Source: Dawidia soli (GTDB lineage: Bacteria; Bacteroidota; Bacteroidia; Cytophagales; Cyclobacteriaceae). From it: a stretch of 64,000 nucleotides of DNA. A model generated the notes under the pieces. It made no database searches and was not told the origin of the DNA. It saw only the letters and a program-made list of their open reading frames with translations. The DNA is taken from assembly GCF_018598185.1 (NCBI RefSeq), contig NZ_JAHESC010000002.1, positions 186,001 through 250,000 of the forward strand, read 5' to 3'. Made by a program: the position numbers and the translations under genes. Positions 3,346 to 57,981 of the stretch are shown here, piece after piece. The stretch's first letter is position 1, and each line of letters opens with the position of its first letter.

Positions 3346-3366
3346 GCTAAGAGAGCGAATTATACG

Positions 3367-5673
3367 CTAATCTTCAAACCTTTTTTTGCTACCCTTTCTG
3401 GCTCTTCCGCCTTTCCGGGGTCTTCCACTTTTCTCGGGTCGTCCGCCTTTGTCGGCTCTTTCACCCTTGTCGCCCTTCTCGGCCCGGCCGTCGGCGAAGA
3501 CCAGATCGATGAGGCGTTTGTCGATGTCGGTCTTTTTCACCTTCACCTTTACCTTGTCGCCCAGTGTATAGATCTTCCTTGTCTTGCGGCCGATCACACG
3601 GTAGCTGCGTTCGTCAAACTCGTAGAAGTCGTCGGAAAGATCGGCCAGGCGGATCATGCCTTCGCACTTGGTCTCGACGATCTCGACATACAGGCCCCAT
3701 TCGGTCACGCCGGAGATCAGGCCTTCGTACACACGGTCCTCGGCGTTGGCCATGAACTCTACCTGTTTGTATTTGATAGACGCCCGCTCGGCATCGGCAG
3801 CACGCTTTTCGCGTTCGGAGGAGTGTACACACTTCTCTTCATACTCGTTCTTGTTGACCGACTTGCCTTCGTCTATATAGTGCTGCAGCAGACGGTGTGC
3901 CATCATGTCCGGATAACGACGGATCGGCGACGTAAAGTGCGAGTAATGATCGAACGCCAGTCCGAAGTGTCCTTTGGCTTCCGTAGAATACTTGGCCTTG
4001 GCCATGGTACGGATGGCGAGCTGCTCGAGTATATTTTGCTCGGGCTTGCCTTCGATGGAGGTCATCAGCTTGTTCAGCGACTGGCTGATGGATGCGTCGT
4101 CGATGTTGATCTTGTGACCAAACTGTTTGGCGAATGTGGCGAAATCCTGAACCTTTTCCGGATCGGGCGAGTCGTGGATCCGGTATACATAGGTGTTCTT
4201 GTCTTTGCCTTTCTTGAGGTCGTATACATGCGTGGCCACGCGTTTGTTGGCCAGCAGCATAAACTCTTCGATCAGTTTATGGGCATCCTTGCGCACCTTG
4301 GGAATAACGGCCAGCGGCTTGCCTTTTTCGTCAAGCTTAAACTTCACTTCCGTCGTCTCGAAGTTCACGGCGCCTTTGGCAAAGCGTTGCTTGCGCAGCT
4401 TCTTGGCAATGTCGTTCAGGATCTTCAGCTCTTCGGACAGGTTGCCCATGCCGCGTTCCAGGATCTCCTGTGCTTCTTCGTAGGTAAAGCGTACGTCGGA
4501 GTGAATGACGGTACGCCCGAACCACTCTTTTTTGATCTTGCCCGAGGCGTCCATTTCAAAGACCGCCGAGAAGGTAAGCTTGTCTTCGTGCGGCCGTAGC
4601 GAGCACAACCCGTTGGATAGGTGCTCGGGCAACATCGGAATGGTACGGTCTACCAGGTATACCGACGTGGCGCGCTCGTATGCTTCTTTTTCCAGCTCGG
4701 AGTCGGGCTTTACATAGTGGGTCACGTCGGCAATGTGCACGCCGATCTCATAGTTGCCGTTGGGCAGCGTTTGAAACGACAGCGCATCGTCAAAGTCTTT
4801 TGCATCGAACGGGTCGATCGTAAACGTGGTGATCTCGCGAAAGTCCCAGCGTTTTTTGATCTCTTCTTTGGTAATACCCTCTTTGATCTTGTTGGCCTCT
4901 GCTTCCACTTCCTGCGGGAAACGGAATGGCAGCCCGAACTCCGCCATGATCGAGTGGATCTCGGCTTCGTTCTCGCCGGCCCGGCCGAGTACTTCGATGA
5001 CCTTGGCTTCGGGCTTCCGGTCGTCTGCGGCCCACGAAGTGATCTCTACGATCACCTTGTCGCCCGTACGGGCACCGTTGACGTTCTCCGGGTAAATGAA
5101 GAAGTCCTGGTGCATCTTGCGATAGTCAGGCTTAACAAAGGCGAAGTTCTTGGAGATCTCGATCTTACCGGCAAAGCGTGTACGGCTGCGGCGTATGACC
5201 TCCGTCACTTTGCCTTCCTGATGGTCGCCATGTCGTGTTGCCAGCAGCGTGATCTTCACGGTATCGCCGTCCACGGCGCCGCCGAGGTCGCGGCCATTGA
5301 TATAGATATCGTCCTTGCCTTCACCCAGGCGGATGTAGGCGAAGCGTGAGCTGACGTGGTCAACAATGCCCGTGAGTTCTTCCTGTGCACGGTTGCTGAC
5401 AAAGCTGCCGTTCCTGAGCTCTTTTATCTGTTCGTCGTCTTCGAGTTGATAGATGGTGAGCGTGGCCAGTTTGATATCGTCCCGCTTTTTGAGGTCCAGC
5501 TTTTTCAGGATCTGCTTGATGCTGTAACCCCGTTCGCCCGAATTATCGAGCATGTTGAGAATGGCCTGTTGAAAGAATTTCCGAAGGTCTTTGCCTTTCG
5601 CTTTTTTAGTCCCTTTGGGAGTCTTCGTTCCTTTCGGAGATTTGATCTTTGTGTTTTTTGTCTTTTTGCTCAT
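3367..5673 (-). CDS. rnr: Ribonuclease R
   Basis: A 768-residue 3'-to-5' exoribonuclease of the RNR/RNase II family that degrades structured RNA processively in the cytoplasm. In order: a lysine-rich tail (1-30), a winged-helix-like region (about 31-95), cold-shock domains (about 100-235), the RNB catalytic domain with TIDPFDAKDFDDA at 285-297 carrying the metal-binding aspartates, and a C-terminal S1 domain around 640-725. The last 45 residues are an Arg/Lys/Gly-rich low-complexity tail. Both basic tails are plausible RNA-binding extensions. Its mRNA appears to end at the strong hairpin at 3314-3345. Confidence 0.96.
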   Translation of the reverse strand: MSKKTKNTKIKSPKGTKTPKGTKKAKGKDLRKFFQQAILNMLDNSGERGYSIKQILKKLDLKKRDDIKLATLTIYQLEDDEQIKELRNGSFVSNRAQEELTGIVDHVSSRFAYIRLGEGKDDIYINGRDLGGAVDGDTVKITLLATRHGDHQEGKVTEVIRRSRTRFAGKIEISKNFAFVKPDYRKMHQDFFIYPENVNGARTGDKVIVEITSWAADDRKPEAKVIEVLGRAGENEAEIHSIMAEFGLPFRFPQEVEAEANKIKEGITKEEIKKRWDFREITTFTIDPFDAKDFDDALSFQTLPNGNYEIGVHIADVTHYVKPDSELEKEAYERATSVYLVDRTIPMLPEHLSNGLCSLRPHEDKLTFSAVFEMDASGKIKKEWFGRTVIHSDVRFTYEEAQEILERGMGNLSEELKILNDIAKKLRKQRFAKGAVNFETTEVKFKLDEKGKPLAVIPKVRKDAHKLIEEFMLLANKRVATHVYDLKKGKDKNTYVYRIHDSPDPEKVQDFATFAKQFGHKINIDDASISQSLNKLMTSIEGKPEQNILEQLAIRTMAKAKYSTEAKGHFGLAFDHYSHFTSPIRRYPDMMAHRLLQHYIDEGKSVNKNEYEEKCVHSSEREKRAADAERASIKYKQVEFMANAEDRVYEGLISGVTEWGLYVEIVETKCEGMIRLADLSDDFYEFDERSYRVIGRKTRKIYTLGDKVKVKVKKTDIDKRLIDLVFADGRAEKGDKGERADKGGRPEKSGRPRKGGRARKGSKKRFED

Positions 5674-14686: not shown

Positions 14687-15796
14687 ATGGGAAAATGGGT
14701 ATTTTTTGTGCTGGGCTGCCTTGTCGCCGTAACGGTGTGTGCCCAGGACGCGCAAGTAGAAGGTGCCAGGAAGAAGATCCAGGCAAATGATTTTGCCGGG
14801 GCCAAGACAGACCTTACGAAGCTCATCGATGCCAACCCACGCAACAAGCTGGCGCTGAACCTGCGCGGCCAGGCACGCATGGGCCTGGAAGATTTCTACG
14901 GCGCCATCGGCGACTTCAACTTCGCCCTGGAGCTGGACTCTACCTTTGCCGAAGCCTGGAATAACCGCGGCGAAGCCAAGATCGCCCTCGGCGACGACGA
15001 GAGCGCCATTAACGATTTCACCAAAGCCATCAAGTTCAACGCCAAACTGGTGCTGGCCTATACCAACCGCGGCCTGGCCAAATACGACATCGAAGACCTG
15101 CAAGGCGCCTACCAGGATTTCTCGAAGGCCCTCGACCTGGGCCCCGCCGACGCCGACAAATATTTTAACCGCGGCGTAGTAAAGGCGGAGTTGGGTGAGT
15201 TCATCAGCGCCATCGACGACTATACCAAAGCTATCGAGCTGGACAAGACCGACGCGGGATTGTATAACTACCGCGGCGTGGCATACTACAACACCGGCAA
15301 CCTCGACCAGGCCGTCGCCGACTATGATCAGGCGATCAAGCTCGATCCCAAAGACCCGCTGAAGTATGAGAACCGTGCGCTGGCGAAGAATGCGAAAGAG
15401 AACTTTAAAGGGGCGCTGGAAGATTTTAACAAGGCCATCGAGCTCGATGCCACGCAGGCCGAGACCTATAACCTGCGCGGCGTGGCCAGGTTCAACCTCG
15501 AAGACCACGACGGCGCCATTGCCGATTACACCAAGGCCATCGAGCTGGATGAGACCAATCCCGTGTATTACGACAACCGGGCGCTGTGCAAGACGGAAAA
15601 AGAAGACTACGCGGGTGCGGTAGAAGATTATTCATCCTCGATCGAGCTGTATCCCACGGATCCGGAAACATATTATCAACGTGGGCTTGTAAAGCTTTCC
15701 ATGAACAACAAGTATGACGCGTGCCTTGACTTCAAAAAAGCGGAAGAGCTGGGATCGACTGAAGTGAAGGCCATCATCAAGAAGAACTGTAAGTGA
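14687..15796 (+). CDS. Secreted TPR-repeat protein
   Basis: A 369-residue protein with a signal peptide (MGKWVFFVLGCLVAVTVCAQ) followed by about nine or ten tetratricopeptide repeats that fill the rest of the chain. The repeats are close copies of the type NNRGEAKIALGDDESAINDF, each ending near xAIELD. Such solenoids mediate protein-protein contacts; this one would act in the periplasm or at the outer membrane. It is divergent from the amidohydrolase and followed by an unrelated response regulator. The partner is unknown. Confidence 0.88.
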   Translation: MGKWVFFVLGCLVAVTVCAQDAQVEGARKKIQANDFAGAKTDLTKLIDANPRNKLALNLRGQARMGLEDFYGAIGDFNFALELDSTFAEAWNNRGEAKIALGDDESAINDFTKAIKFNAKLVLAYTNRGLAKYDIEDLQGAYQDFSKALDLGPADADKYFNRGVVKAELGEFISAIDDYTKAIELDKTDAGLYNYRGVAYYNTGNLDQAVADYDQAIKLDPKDPLKYENRALAKNAKENFKGALEDFNKAIELDATQAETYNLRGVARFNLEDHDGAIADYTKAIELDETNPVYYDNRALCKTEKEDYAGAVEDYSSSIELYPTDPETYYQRGLVKLSMNNKYDACLDFKKAEELGSTEVKAIIKKNCK

Positions 15797-35677: not shown

Positions 35678-35699
35678 TGTTCTCATTAGATCTTCTTTT

Positions 35700-36749
35700 A
35701 TGGCGTTGAAGTCGCGTATCGCGCAAAGTAATTTTTTTACGAAAGCCCGGCATTGGGAGTATTGGCCGTTCGGCATTGTACAGTTTCCGCTGTTCATATA
35801 CTATGGCTGGCTGGCACTGCGCGCCCGGTCGTTCACCTTCTTTACAGCGTCGAACCCCGGCATTACCATGGGGGGTATGTTTGGAGAGTCCAAATATGAC
35901 GTACTGATGAAAGTGCCGGCCGCGAACCGGCCCCGGACGGCCCGCGTGAAAGGTCCCGCTACCACAGAAACGGTTGTACACTGCCTGGAAGAATATGGTT
36001 TCTCCCTTCCGGTGATCTTCAAACCCGACATCGGCGAACGCGGGTTTATGGTAAAGCGTATCTCCTCGCGGGCAGAGATCGATCTATACCTGGCTCAGAT
36101 GCCGCACGATTTTATTATCCAGGACCTGGTAGACCTGCCCGTGGAGATGGGTGTTTTTTATGTGCGCCTGCCTTCGGCGGGCCAGGGGCATGTCAACTCG
36201 GTGGTCATAAAAGAAATGCTTTCGGTCACGGGAGACGGCGTACAGACATTGCAAGCACTGATACTACAAAAAGACAGGGCGCGGCTGCAGTGGCCGGCGT
36301 TGCAACAGCGTTTTGCCGGGCGTTTGTCCGACGTGGTCCCTGCGGGAGAATCCATCGAGCTGGTATCGATCGGCAATCATTGCCTGGGGACGAAGTTCCT
36401 GGACGGTACACATTTGATCAATGACCGTTTGTCGGAAACGTTCGATACCGTGAGTAAACAGATTGAAGGCTTTTACTTCGGACGGTTCGATCTGCGGTGC
36501 GCCACGGTGGAAGACCTGTATGCGGGACGTTTCCTGGTGATGGAGCTGAACGGCTGTGGCGCCGAGCCGGCGCATATATACCACCCCGGCTTCCCGTTGT
36601 CACGGGCACTGCGTATCTTGTTCAGGCACTGGCATACGATCTTCCGCATCGCGCGGGAGAATACGGCGCGCGGTGTTTCCTACATGCCCTGGAAACAAGC
36701 CGTGGCATATTACCGGGAGTTCAAACAAAAAACGACGCCGATAGTCTGA
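35700..36749 (+). CDS. ATP-grasp family enzyme, specificity unknown
   Basis: A 349-residue protein starting at the ATG 35700. The order FSLPVIFKPDIGERGFMVKR (ATP-binding Lys, about residue 115), DFIIQDLVDLPVEMGVFYVR (about 150-169) and FLVMELNGCGAEPAHIY (about 280-296), with the metal-binding Glu/Asn, fits D-Ala-D-Ala-ligase-like ATP-grasp folds. The N-terminal domain is not a standard one. The acceptor and carboxylate substrates are unknown. The stop overlaps the start of the LysE-family gene (TGATG), suggesting that the product could be exported by that transporter. Confidence 0.78.
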   Translation: MALKSRIAQSNFFTKARHWEYWPFGIVQFPLFIYYGWLALRARSFTFFTASNPGITMGGMFGESKYDVLMKVPAANRPRTARVKGPATTETVVHCLEEYGFSLPVIFKPDIGERGFMVKRISSRAEIDLYLAQMPHDFIIQDLVDLPVEMGVFYVRLPSAGQGHVNSVVIKEMLSVTGDGVQTLQALILQKDRARLQWPALQQRFAGRLSDVVPAGESIELVSIGNHCLGTKFLDGTHLINDRLSETFDTVSKQIEGFYFGRFDLRCATVEDLYAGRFLVMELNGCGAEPAHIYHPGFPLSRALRILFRHWHTIFRIARENTARGVSYMPWKQAVAYYREFKQKTTPIV

Positions 36750-37378
36750 TGGAAGCCCTTGTCGCCTTCCTGGTGGCCTTTGCCTTTAGCTTTACAGGAT
36801 CTATACCGCCGGGCACGCTGAACCTGACCATTATACAGTTAGGCCTGGAGCATCGCCTCGTGGCGGCGCGTCGGTTTGCAATAGCCGCGGCGTTGGTGGA
36901 GTATCCCTATGCATGGCTCGCGGCCGTCTCGGGTGAATGGATCACGACGTCCACCGGCGGACTGAACGAGCTGCGCCTGGCTACGGCACTGGTTATGATC
37001 ACGCTGGGTGTGTGTGGCATCGTGTCGGCGTCAACGCCGCCGGCCCGTGTACAGCGCTCGCCCAAAAGCGGCTTTCGGAAGGGCATCGTACTGGGGATCC
37101 TCAACCCGCTGGCATTTATATACTGGCTCGGCATATCCACGTACCTGCAGGGTCAGCAGTGGATCGATCTTTCCAGCACCGTTACATTGCACAGCTATCT
37201 CGCCGGCGTGACGCTGGGCGCCTTTGCGTTGTTATTCCTGCTGGCGCATCTGGCCCGGCGGCTCGCGGTATATGTGCAGCAAAGTCATTGGCTGCGACGG
37301 CTACCGGGGTTGTTACTGACAGGCCTGGGATTGTATGCGCTGGGACAGTATCTCGCTTCGGTTATACAAGGGGTGTAA
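36749..37378 (+). CDS. LysE family exporter
   Basis: A 209-residue inner-membrane protein with about six hydrophobic segments. The N-terminus FLVAFAFSFTGSIPPGTLNL carries the PPG(P/T) motif of LysE/RhtB amino-acid exporters. It is translationally coupled to the ATP-grasp gene. It overlaps the convergent LD-carboxypeptidase gene by 17 bp. Substrate unknown. Confidence 0.85.
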   Translation: MEALVAFLVAFAFSFTGSIPPGTLNLTIIQLGLEHRLVAARRFAIAAALVEYPYAWLAAVSGEWITTSTGGLNELRLATALVMITLGVCGIVSASTPPARVQRSPKSGFRKGIVLGILNPLAFIYWLGISTYLQGQQWIDLSSTVTLHSYLAGVTLGAFALLFLLAHLARRLAVYVQQSHWLRRLPGLLLTGLGLYALGQYLASVIQGV

Positions 37379-38276
37379 TGATCGACTGCGCTGCGGTCAC
37401 CTCCAACGACACCCGGGCTCCCTGTACCCACGCCAGGTTGGGGTTCTCATGGCCGGAAGGAAAGCGGAAGGCAACCGGATAGTGGTACGCACGGGTATGG
37501 TTCAGGATGATCTGCTCGGGGGTCTCCTCGAAGGCCAGGCTCGGATCTTCTTTGATGTCGGTCATGTGGCCGATCAGGAGTCCTGCCAGGTTCGCCAGCT
37601 TGCCGGCGCGCTTCAACTGGTTGACCATGCGGTCTACGCGGTAGACCAACTCTCCTATCTCTTCGATCACCAGTATTTTCCCGTTTGTATCCAGCTCGCT
37701 GGCGGTGCCCAGGCTATCCACTAACAACGACAGGTTGCCGCCGACCAGTACGCCTTCTGCGCGGCCGGGTTTGTTGGCGGGTGCTGCCGGTGCTGTGATG
37801 GCATCGGGTTTTCCGAAGAGGGCGTTGCGCAGGCTTTCGATGGAAGGTATGCTGGCGGGGTTGGCAAAGAGTACGGGCATGGTGCCGTGGATGCTGGCGA
37901 TGCCGAGGCTTAGCAGCTTAAGCTGCAGGGCGGTGACGTCGCTGAAGCCGACGATCCACTTGGGGTGTTGCTGCAGGGTGGCATAGTTCGCGCGGTCGAT
38001 GATGCGGCCGCTGCCATAACCACCGCGGGCACAGAGAATGGCGTCGATCGTAGGATCGTCGAGGGCGGCTTGCAGGTCGGCAAGGCGCTGGTCGTCCGTG
38101 CCGGCCAGGTAGGCATGGGCCTGGCTTAACAAATTATTGGCGGGGACAACGGTCAGGCCCCAGGCGGTCAGTACCCGGCGGGCATGGCTTACGTGCTCTT
38201 CGGAGGCTCTGCGGCTGAGGGCGACGAGGGCGACCCGGGCGCCGGGTTTTAAGGGCGGTGGGATCAGGATGGACAT
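37362..38276 (-). CDS. LD-carboxypeptidase (peptidase family S66)
   Basis: A 304-residue enzyme that cleaves the terminal D-alanine from the tetrapeptide of recycled murein. ARGGYGSGRIID (about 83-94) and GFSDVTALQLKLL (about 108-120, with the catalytic Ser) are S66 hallmarks; the C-terminal FPSGHENPN supplies the catalytic His region. It is cytoplasmic by lack of a signal peptide, consistent with murein recycling. It may be transcribed from within the repeat island that precedes it. Confidence 0.93.
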   Translation of the reverse strand: MSILIPPPLKPGARVALVALSRRASEEHVSHARRVLTAWGLTVVPANNLLSQAHAYLAGTDDQRLADLQAALDDPTIDAILCARGGYGSGRIIDRANYATLQQHPKWIVGFSDVTALQLKLLSLGIASIHGTMPVLFANPASIPSIESLRNALFGKPDAITAPAAPANKPGRAEGVLVGGNLSLLVDSLGTASELDTNGKILVIEEIGELVYRVDRMVNQLKRAGKLANLAGLLIGHMTDIKEDPSLAFEETPEQIILNHTRAYHYPVAFRFPSGHENPNLAWVQGARVSLEVTAAQSIITPLV

Positions 38277-38690
38277 CCGTGCAAGTACGGGAAGTTTGCG
38301 GGTTGGGGCAAGCTTTGTATAAGGTTGCTGTATGTCGGGGATATGTCATGGATAGCTATGGGATAAGGTTGATACGGGTAATCCCTGGCGTTGGCCCGGG
38401 TGAAGCCTGGGAATGGAGCGGGCTTTCCGGAGGATTACCCGTATCAAACCCCTATCAAAGTGCTATCGAAGCACTATATAAAGGCTATCGGATTGTATCC
38501 AAAGGCACGGCCAGTACCTCAGAGGCGTATCAAAGGCACGGTTGTAGCAGTGTTGTAGCACTGTTGCGGCAGAGTTCCGGCACGGATATAGCGACCCATA
38601 AATGCGTGCGCCGGTCTAACACTGGTTCAACGATCCTGAGGCAGTGCTTTATCTATGCTGTAACCGGGCTTTGGCCTGGGAGATGATACT
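38277..38690. repeat. Gene-free island of short degenerate repeats and inverted repeats
   Basis: This stretch between the LD-carboxypeptidase and DUF1573 genes holds no convincing gene. It contains a 16-bp perfect inverted repeat (38369-38384 against 38432-38447), a hairpin AGTGCT-5 nt-AGCACT at 38459-38475, three tandem 11-mers of the type GTTGTAGCANT (38541-38573), and a run of TATC-started elements at 38452-38540. TATCCAAAGGCACGG and TATCAAAGGCACGG are near-copies. An open frame (38258-38686) crosses it and translates to a low-complexity Tyr/Ser/Arg string such as YKGYRIVSKG, which looks like an echo of the repeats. Confidence 0.6.
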
Positions 38691-38692
38691 AC

Positions 38693-38726
38693 AAAAAAGC
38701 CATTCGCTGGCTGGCGAATGGCTTTT
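38693..38726 (-). terminator. Terminator after the DUF1573 gene
   Basis: GCCATTCGC (38699-38707) and GCGAATGGC (38714-38722) form a perfect 9-bp stem with a 6-nt loop, extended by A-T pairs. On the minus strand it is followed by six T (38698-38693). Confidence 0.85.
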
Positions 38727-38748: not shown

Positions 38749-39291
38749 TTAGTGTGCAGCCGGGGCGTTGCCAGCCTTCGGCGTGATCATCGCCTTGAAA
38801 CGCAGCACGGTTTGTTTAGGCCAGGTGTTGGCCGTTACCGTGATGGTTTTGTTTTGAACGTTTTGTTTGCCGTTGCTGTCGAATTTGGCCTTTACATAGC
38901 CTGTGCCGCCCACGGGGATCGGCTCTTTTGAAAAATCCGGTACGGTGCAACCGCAAGAGGGTTGTGCGCCCTGAATGATCAACGGAGCTTCGCCGGTGTT
39001 TTTCACTTTGTACGTGTATTCTACGATGTCGCCTTCTTTGATGGTGCCGAAGTCGTGTTCAGTGGTTTCAAACTGGATGACCGGTAGCGGGCCTTCGGGT
39101 TTTTCTTCGGGGGCTGCAACGGTCGGGTTCGGTGCGGGTACGGTCGTACCGGCGGCCTTCTTGCCTTCTACTTCTGCCAGTCGGCTTTCCAGTTCTGCTA
39201 TTCGCTTTTCGCTGGCGCGATCTTTACATGCCGTAAAGCATACCAACACCGCTGCGAAAAATAGCATCGATTTAAAGATTGCTGTTTTCAT
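38749..39291 (-). CDS. DUF1573 lipoprotein
   Basis: A 180-residue lipoprotein (lipobox VCFTAC, Cys22). A short coiled coil (ASEKRIAELESRLAEVEGKK) and a Pro-rich linker lead to a DUF1573 immunoglobulin-like domain (about 70-175) with EHDFGTIKEGDIVEYTYKVK and the invariant PSCGCTVPDFSKEPI. It probably sits in the periplasm. In Bacteroidota it usually follows nusB, as it does here with a YtxH gene in between. Confidence 0.9.
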   Translation of the reverse strand: MKTAIFKSMLFFAAVLVCFTACKDRASEKRIAELESRLAEVEGKKAAGTTVPAPNPTVAAPEEKPEGPLPVIQFETTEHDFGTIKEGDIVEYTYKVKNTGEAPLIIQGAQPSCGCTVPDFSKEPIPVGGTGYVKAKFDSNGKQNVQNKTITVTANTWPKQTVLRFKAMITPKAGNAPAAH

Positions 39292-57840: not shown

Positions 57841-57908
57841 CTAGGCCTACAGTGCGGGATAACACGGGGATAACTTAGATTTAAGCCAGTGATGACCCAG
57901 TCCTAAAG

Positions 57909-57981
57909 CACTGGGAAAACACACGGGAATGTCCAGTGCCAGGCACAGGTTGCCGCGCACAGACTGTCCGGCATGTGCCGG
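57909..57981. other. Two inverted repeats in the uvrA upstream region
   Basis: CACTGG (57909-57914) and CCAGTG (57933-57938) form an inverted repeat, and CCGGCATGTGCCGG (57968-57981) is a perfect palindrome. Both lie upstream of the uvrA promoter within the 310-bp gap between the preceding gene and uvrA; otherwise I see nothing there. Confidence 0.35.

Follow-up and report, generated by a model that had tools for sequence, protein, structure and literature searches.

Intergenic arrays of 11-bp units in Dawidia soli and comparable arrays in other Bacteroidota

The focal locus and its period

We analysed a 64,000-nucleotide stretch of the Dawidia soli genome (hereafter the window). In it, a patch with no gene that we could recognise lies between an LD-carboxypeptidase gene (37362-38276) and a DUF1573 gene (38749-39291) that turns its 3-prime end towards the patch; both genes are on the minus strand. 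An earlier note on this DNA had described a 16-bp inverted repeat, a small hairpin, tandem 11-mers and TATC-type units in the patch. All of these are present: the inverted repeat is perfect (38369-38384 / 38432-38447), the hairpin AGTGCT/AGCACT has a 6-bp stem at 38459-38475, the tandem 11-mers begin at 38437 and the TATC-type units reach about 38535. The observation is confirmed, and it is stronger than first thought; a feature that had been overlooked is an exact 11-bp period across about 300 bp (38312-38600). The parts of the locus, with a second island of the window, are as follows.

38299-38692, ends read by eye: block of about 394 bp, present here versus 7 bp in Parachryseolinea silvisoli (G002), with the same flanks
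38312-38384, minus strand: left arm, family 1; head GGATTACCCGTATCA, then degenerate 11-mers running outward
38385-38431, no strand: spacer separating the two heads, 47 nt between the inverted repeats
38432-38512, plus strand: right arm, same family as the left; head GGATTACCCGTATCA and TATC-type 11-mers, containing the small hairpin
38526-38672, no strand: second array family, 11-mers of TTGTAGCAGTG / CTTTATCTATG type
38695-38726, minus strand: terminator-like hairpin, 13-bp inverted repeat with a T-run on the minus strand; adjoins the block, outside the stretch first noted
57849-57936, no strand: second period-11 island of the window, with a different 11-mer word

The two family-1 arms form a head-to-head pair, pointing away from each other, and are joined to the second inverted array, whose own arms (38533-38563 and 38642-38672) show 71% complementarity. 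A copy of this second family lies elsewhere in the genome (G000:C47:63545-63718, 76% identity over query positions 250-423), and its relatives at four loci (L034, L039, L050 and L054) are inverted pairs of 11-mer arrays. From its sequence, the hairpin at 38695-38726 resembles a terminator for the DUF1573 gene.

Over 38311-38620, the match rate was 0.45, 0.39, 0.34 and 0.35 at lags 11, 22, 33 and 44, and 0.18-0.30 at the remaining lags from 5 to 45. We defined an island as at least 36 of 66 matches at a given lag (34 of 66 in some scans) and scanned 864 kb of the D. soli genome, consisting of the window and 40 stretches of 20 kb from four contigs bearing family-1 copies; in two of these contigs, stretches with known copies were left out. 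Lag 11 gave 15 islands and lag 22 gave 5, while the other non-triplet lags from 5 to 40 gave 2 in total. Several triplet lags were also high (9 islands at lag 12 and 12 at lag 18, for example), which we put down to coding DNA. When the same sequence was shuffled in 200-bp blocks, five rounds of 864 kb produced 1 island versus the 15 observed. Islands of period 18 and period 21 at 3357-3519 and 14937-15058 of the window are probably coding repeats, their periods being multiples of 3.

The suggestion that the patch might be a decayed gene found no support: neither of the two plus-strand frames tested, the open frame at 38258-38686 (142 aa) and the frame at 38391-38558, matched Pfam at E 0.001, and the period is not a multiple of 3. 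Rfam gave no match at the gathering score anywhere in the window.

Copies, placement and unit phase

The locus does belong to a dispersed repeat family, as had been proposed. A search for the head 16-mer with up to 2 mismatches gave 53 occurrences in the D. soli genome, 16 of them exact, and none for the reversed control; some of the 2-mismatch sites may be chance. For a 15-mer with no more than 1 mismatch we counted 56 sites in D. soli, 9 in G002 and at most 4 per genome in 96 other relatives, matches beyond D. soli (G000) and G002 being few and near the level of the reversed control. Many family-1 arms carry head, middle and tail words in a common order.

Family-1 arms in gaps between tandem genes are evenly oriented relative to those genes (14:12), and we rejected a strand-specific function on this count. 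The remaining arms lie between two 5-prime ends (9), between two 3-prime ends (4), at contig edges (3) or inside genes (2). Among 44 island rows, at least three of which are the same place counted twice, 26 fall in tandem, 8 in convergent and 7 in divergent gaps, 2 overlap short predicted ORFs and 1 is at an edge. Against a background of 24708, 6172 and 13682 intergenic bp in tandem, convergent and divergent gaps (from a rough in-house gene caller), these counts show no more than a slight avoidance of divergent gaps, so that strict gap placement can be set aside; there is no clear preference for gene ends.

The 11-mer words vary between islands, and within the 44 family-1 arms the information per unit drops away from the head (20.8 bits for the head itself, then 10.6, 8.7, 8.1, 5.8 and 3.8). 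Two of the 44 (L028 plus and L055) are chance head matches inside genes, and their exclusion leaves 42 arms, selected by the head alone, for the phase counts. Among their 210 downstream units, 144 have TA at column 6, one has it at column 5 and none at column 7; TA is also seen 42 times at column 0 and 61 times at column 4, both of which likewise lie within the words. A step between units was taken as recognisable when 7 of 11 positions matched at some lag from 8 to 14. Of 210 steps 102 were recognisable, and 95 of these are exactly 11 bp; the others comprise three at 10, one each at 9, 12 and 14, and one tie of 10 and 11. Over all 210 steps, successive units differ by 996 substitutions, or 4.7 per step, and BLAST alignments of non-coding DNA between D. 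soli and G002 hold 328 indels to 1664 substitutions. Indels thus look strongly depleted in the arrays relative to non-coding DNA, in a comparison of counts that is no formal rate test and whose arms are related copies, not independent events.

We also examined 28 hand-picked islands from several genomes. In 18 of them, 4 or more of 5 units carry TA in phase, where a simulated null with a mutation rate of our own setting gives 22% (binomial p about 2e-6, for islands that are not fully independent); the 10 islands falling below this level include the best-scoring window of the focal island. Six head-to-head spacers, from a list that omits the L028 pair, measure 32, 24, 67, 55, 220 and 518 bp and leave residues of 10, 2, 1, 0, 0 and 1 modulo 11, which is suggestive of helical phasing, six being too few for a claim. 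Such pairs include only 12 of the 42 family-1 arms, and 30 are without a partner at the thresholds used.

Turnover among relatives and arrays in distant genera

The focal site is empty in the sister species P. silvisoli, with 441 bp in D. soli versus 49 bp in G002 between alignment blocks. Along about 207 kb of synteny we compared six D. soli islands, called at 34 of 66; opposite them, G002 has an array of the same family in one case and an array of another word in a second; two further sites are empty and two hold non-periodic sequence. The G002 site matching the second island of the window (57849-57936) holds an array of another word (L192:17292-17408). Judging from these alignments, the array element turns over quickly, by gain or loss and by rewriting, and single copies look dispensable. 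The same comparison showed a further difference: for a segment of the window of about 1.7 kb (~35682-37420), which holds two predicted ORFs, the G002 stretch offers no alignment longer than 200 bp, and there the alignment blocks on either side lie about 80 bp apart.

Among relatives the islands are patchy. G002 has 3 lag-11 islands in 200 kb, one of which is a known copy, and there are none in 200 kb of G003, in 200 kb of G004, or at 36 of 66 matches in 453 kb of 25 other contigs, mostly titled Cyclobacteriaceae or Flammeovirgaceae. In 200 kb of G006 we found 1 island at lag 11 and 4 at lag 7. G046 has 6 lag-11 islands in 400 kb together with 3-4 each at lags 7, 8, 10, 14 and 17, and period 11 is less clean in this genome. 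At 34 of 66, lag-7 islands number 6 in G006 and 4 in G004 in 200 kb each (L240-L259), and none occur in 464 kb of D. soli; in these two congeneric genomes they are possibly heptamer repeats.

The earlier note had pointed to similar strings in other Bacteroidota, and at the DNA level this is supported by period-11 words in distant genera. Across 395 genomes of the phylum, a fully specified two-unit word was found with up to 2 mismatches at 38 places in 16 genomes, and its reversed control at 8 places in 8 genomes. Among the 36 matches listed, exact ones occur in G000, G393, G615, G445 and G359; beyond G000, g162 and g213, the matches listed are single 2-mismatch ones at control level. In two distant genera of Bacteroidota the word TATCAAAG(C/A)CG repeats every 11 bp, taking the form TATCAAAGCCG in G615 and TATCAAAGACG in G445 and G359, and arrays of this type are seen at loci of G615, G445, G359 and G456. 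Those of genus g213 are mostly inverted arms about an AT-rich centre. Of seven distant-genus loci (G418 included), three have no overlap with an ORF of at least 60 aa, two others meet one with overlaps of 5 and 17 bp, and two overlap frames of 71 aa and 92 aa, respectively. Run in its period-10 version, a three-unit pattern matched 0 of 296 genomes.

In G060, which belongs to another family, a two-unit pattern has 142 matches in a 4.1-Mb genome, with 0 for the control. Eleven of 12 stretches that we read contain TATCATAGCCG arrays within a longer conserved dispersed element (L142-L151 and L153), with well conserved flanks around the array.

Proposed protein sites on one helix face and rival readings

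A non-triplet period, the lack of Pfam and Rfam matches, a mostly intergenic placement and the absence of strand bias together point to either a function at the DNA level or a passive repeat. Because one period recurs across words and genera, and phase is kept while sequence drifts, a constraint set by the helix is favoured. As far as sequence can tell, the pattern favours tandem sites for a putative DNA-binding protein, and we consider it an evenly balanced proposition that the element is a dispersed, non-coding row of such sites on one face of the helix. Its arms are built of 11-bp units, and each turn of the helix would typically present a single flexible motif with a TpA step (TAYCAAAGCCG type). 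The putative protein may start at the conserved head, proceed outward and bend or wrap the intergenic DNA, and new copies would arise by the copying of whole arms, which could leave each genome with a few word families. Several observations weigh against this reading. The differences in word between loci of one genome do not easily fit a single sequence-reading protein, 10 of the 28 hand-picked islands fall short of in-phase TA in 4 of 5 units, presence is patchy with several relatives lacking islands, two sites are empty in G002 and two more hold non-periodic sequence there, and the spacers vary.

It is tempting to go further and suppose that Bacteroidota have an undescribed DNA-architectural system, in which one or more putative proteins read one motif per turn and polymerise or wrap along 11-bp arrays whose words drift by species while phase is under selection; this we offer tentatively, as a possibility on the doubtful side. 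Interspersed bacterial repeats are usually defined by sequence or hairpin, whereas in these arrays helical phase looks like the conserved property. To our knowledge, chromosome-organising proteins are poorly known in Bacteroidota, a large phylum, and if our reading is true, arrays with and without inserted bases would be a simple handle for a new nucleoid or regulatory protein there.

We found no description of such 11-bp intergenic arrays among the papers listed in searches of the open-access PMC literature. A spacing of 11 bp is familiar from the tandem direct-repeat operators of PhoB/OmpR- and SARP-type regulators, which likewise have head-to-tail protein sites one turn apart; unlike them, the arrays here are longer and degenerate, use many words and occur in tandem, convergent and divergent gaps. 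PhoB sites are described as direct repeats in the relevant passage of PMC3348028. Arrays of the heptamer TAACTGA, reported from Beggiatoaceae, Cyanobacteria and five Bacteroidetes, share with ours a patchy distribution and direct repeats that are mostly intergenic, but differ in a unit of 7 and, in the genome described, a position mostly just upstream of start codons (PMC4679880). A CRISPR array was rejected, the units here being contiguous 11-mers without unique spacers.

The main rival is a passive mobile repeat, MITE- or REP-like, whose arms would have been copied by a putative enzyme and whose period would be only a relic of the founding element's origin. The many copies in one species (56 sites versus 9 in G002), the empty sites in G002 and the ordered words common to many arms would all suit it, but different words and genera reach the same period, and the best conserved sequence lies on the inner side of pairs rather than at their outer ends, so that we regard it as somewhat unlikely. 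MITEs have terminal inverted repeats at their outer ends and a target duplication; here the conserved inverted heads are internal, and inspection of the focal empty site by eye showed no duplication, which about 13% divergence could hide. REP and BIME elements with RAYT transposases are, as described in PMC3733652, short dispersed intergenic repeats with inverted pairs and species-specific families, much as here, and RAYT-type REPs are defined there by a small stem-loop with GTAG or CGTC next to it as a tag. Family-1 arms differ in having neither tag nor a common stem: at the focal locus they lack GTAG/CTAC and CGTC/GACG and any internal stem of 9 bp or more, and the 6-bp stem of the right arm was not noticed by eye in the other family-1 arms inspected. 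The focal second family does have 2 GTAG near a short CAGTG/CACTG stem; by eye, the second-family arrays at L034, L039, L050 and L054 are without GTAG.

Y1_Tnp is present in 6 of 7 genomes of the genus. D. soli has four such loci, and we rejected a RAYT-driven REP since none of these genes is flanked on both sides by an 11-bp array: L237 has an array on a single side, some 240 bp upstream, and L230 has none. The genes at L235 and L239 (G000:C40:75883 and C87:5154) are RAYT-like and, by eye, are flanked on both sides by a different dispersed repeat, GGCGCCGGTCT... / ...GGAGACCGCC, which speaks against the passive reading of the 11-bp arrays. This other repeat is also present in some intergenic gaps of the G002 synteny comparison and is possibly the genome's true REP/RAYT system.

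In a specific form of the protein-site reading, which we consider unlikely, the arrays would be wrapped by DNA gyrase (BIME-2-like) or by an HU/IHF-type protein, with phased flexible steps that let the DNA wind next to genes. TATCAA would correspond to the first half of the IHF consensus of E. coli. The stretches of G003 and G004 and the 25 other contigs described above yielded no islands, though gyrase is universal, and the arrays show no clear gene-end preference. The E. coli gyrase motif is reported to have two flanks of about 47 bp with GC content periodic at 10.75 bp around a central 36-bp part (PMC6379681), and by analogy it is the nearest known physical counterpart: period-11 arms, usually with TA in phase, can be set beside those 10.75-bp flanks, and strong gyrase sites likewise have helically phased flanks suited to wrapping (PMC6379681 and PMC12393610). 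Unlike gyrase sites as described there, the arrays are direct repeats of a word with variable spacers and no constant core. The six head-to-head spacers range from 24 to 518 bp, at odds with a centre of roughly 36 bp, and no more than 12 of the 42 arms are paired at all; variable spacers and a patchy distribution together argue against a plain gyrase site.

A structured RNA, also raised in the earlier note, or a 3-prime UTR hairpin is not favoured and seems very unlikely to us. The focal arm pair folds well, with z-scores of -4.15 and -3.68, and both the second family and genus g213 also have inverted arms; both strands fold well, however, as is to be expected of an inverted repeat, 30 of 42 arms are without a head-to-head partner, Rfam gives no match and the orientation in tandem gaps is even. 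Least probable is a neutral minisatellite from replication slippage, for although tandem units in variable numbers, differences between orthologous arrays and islands at other short lags in relatives (G046, G006) would suit it, other non-triplet lags are nearly free of islands in D. soli and unit length stays constant despite sequence divergence.
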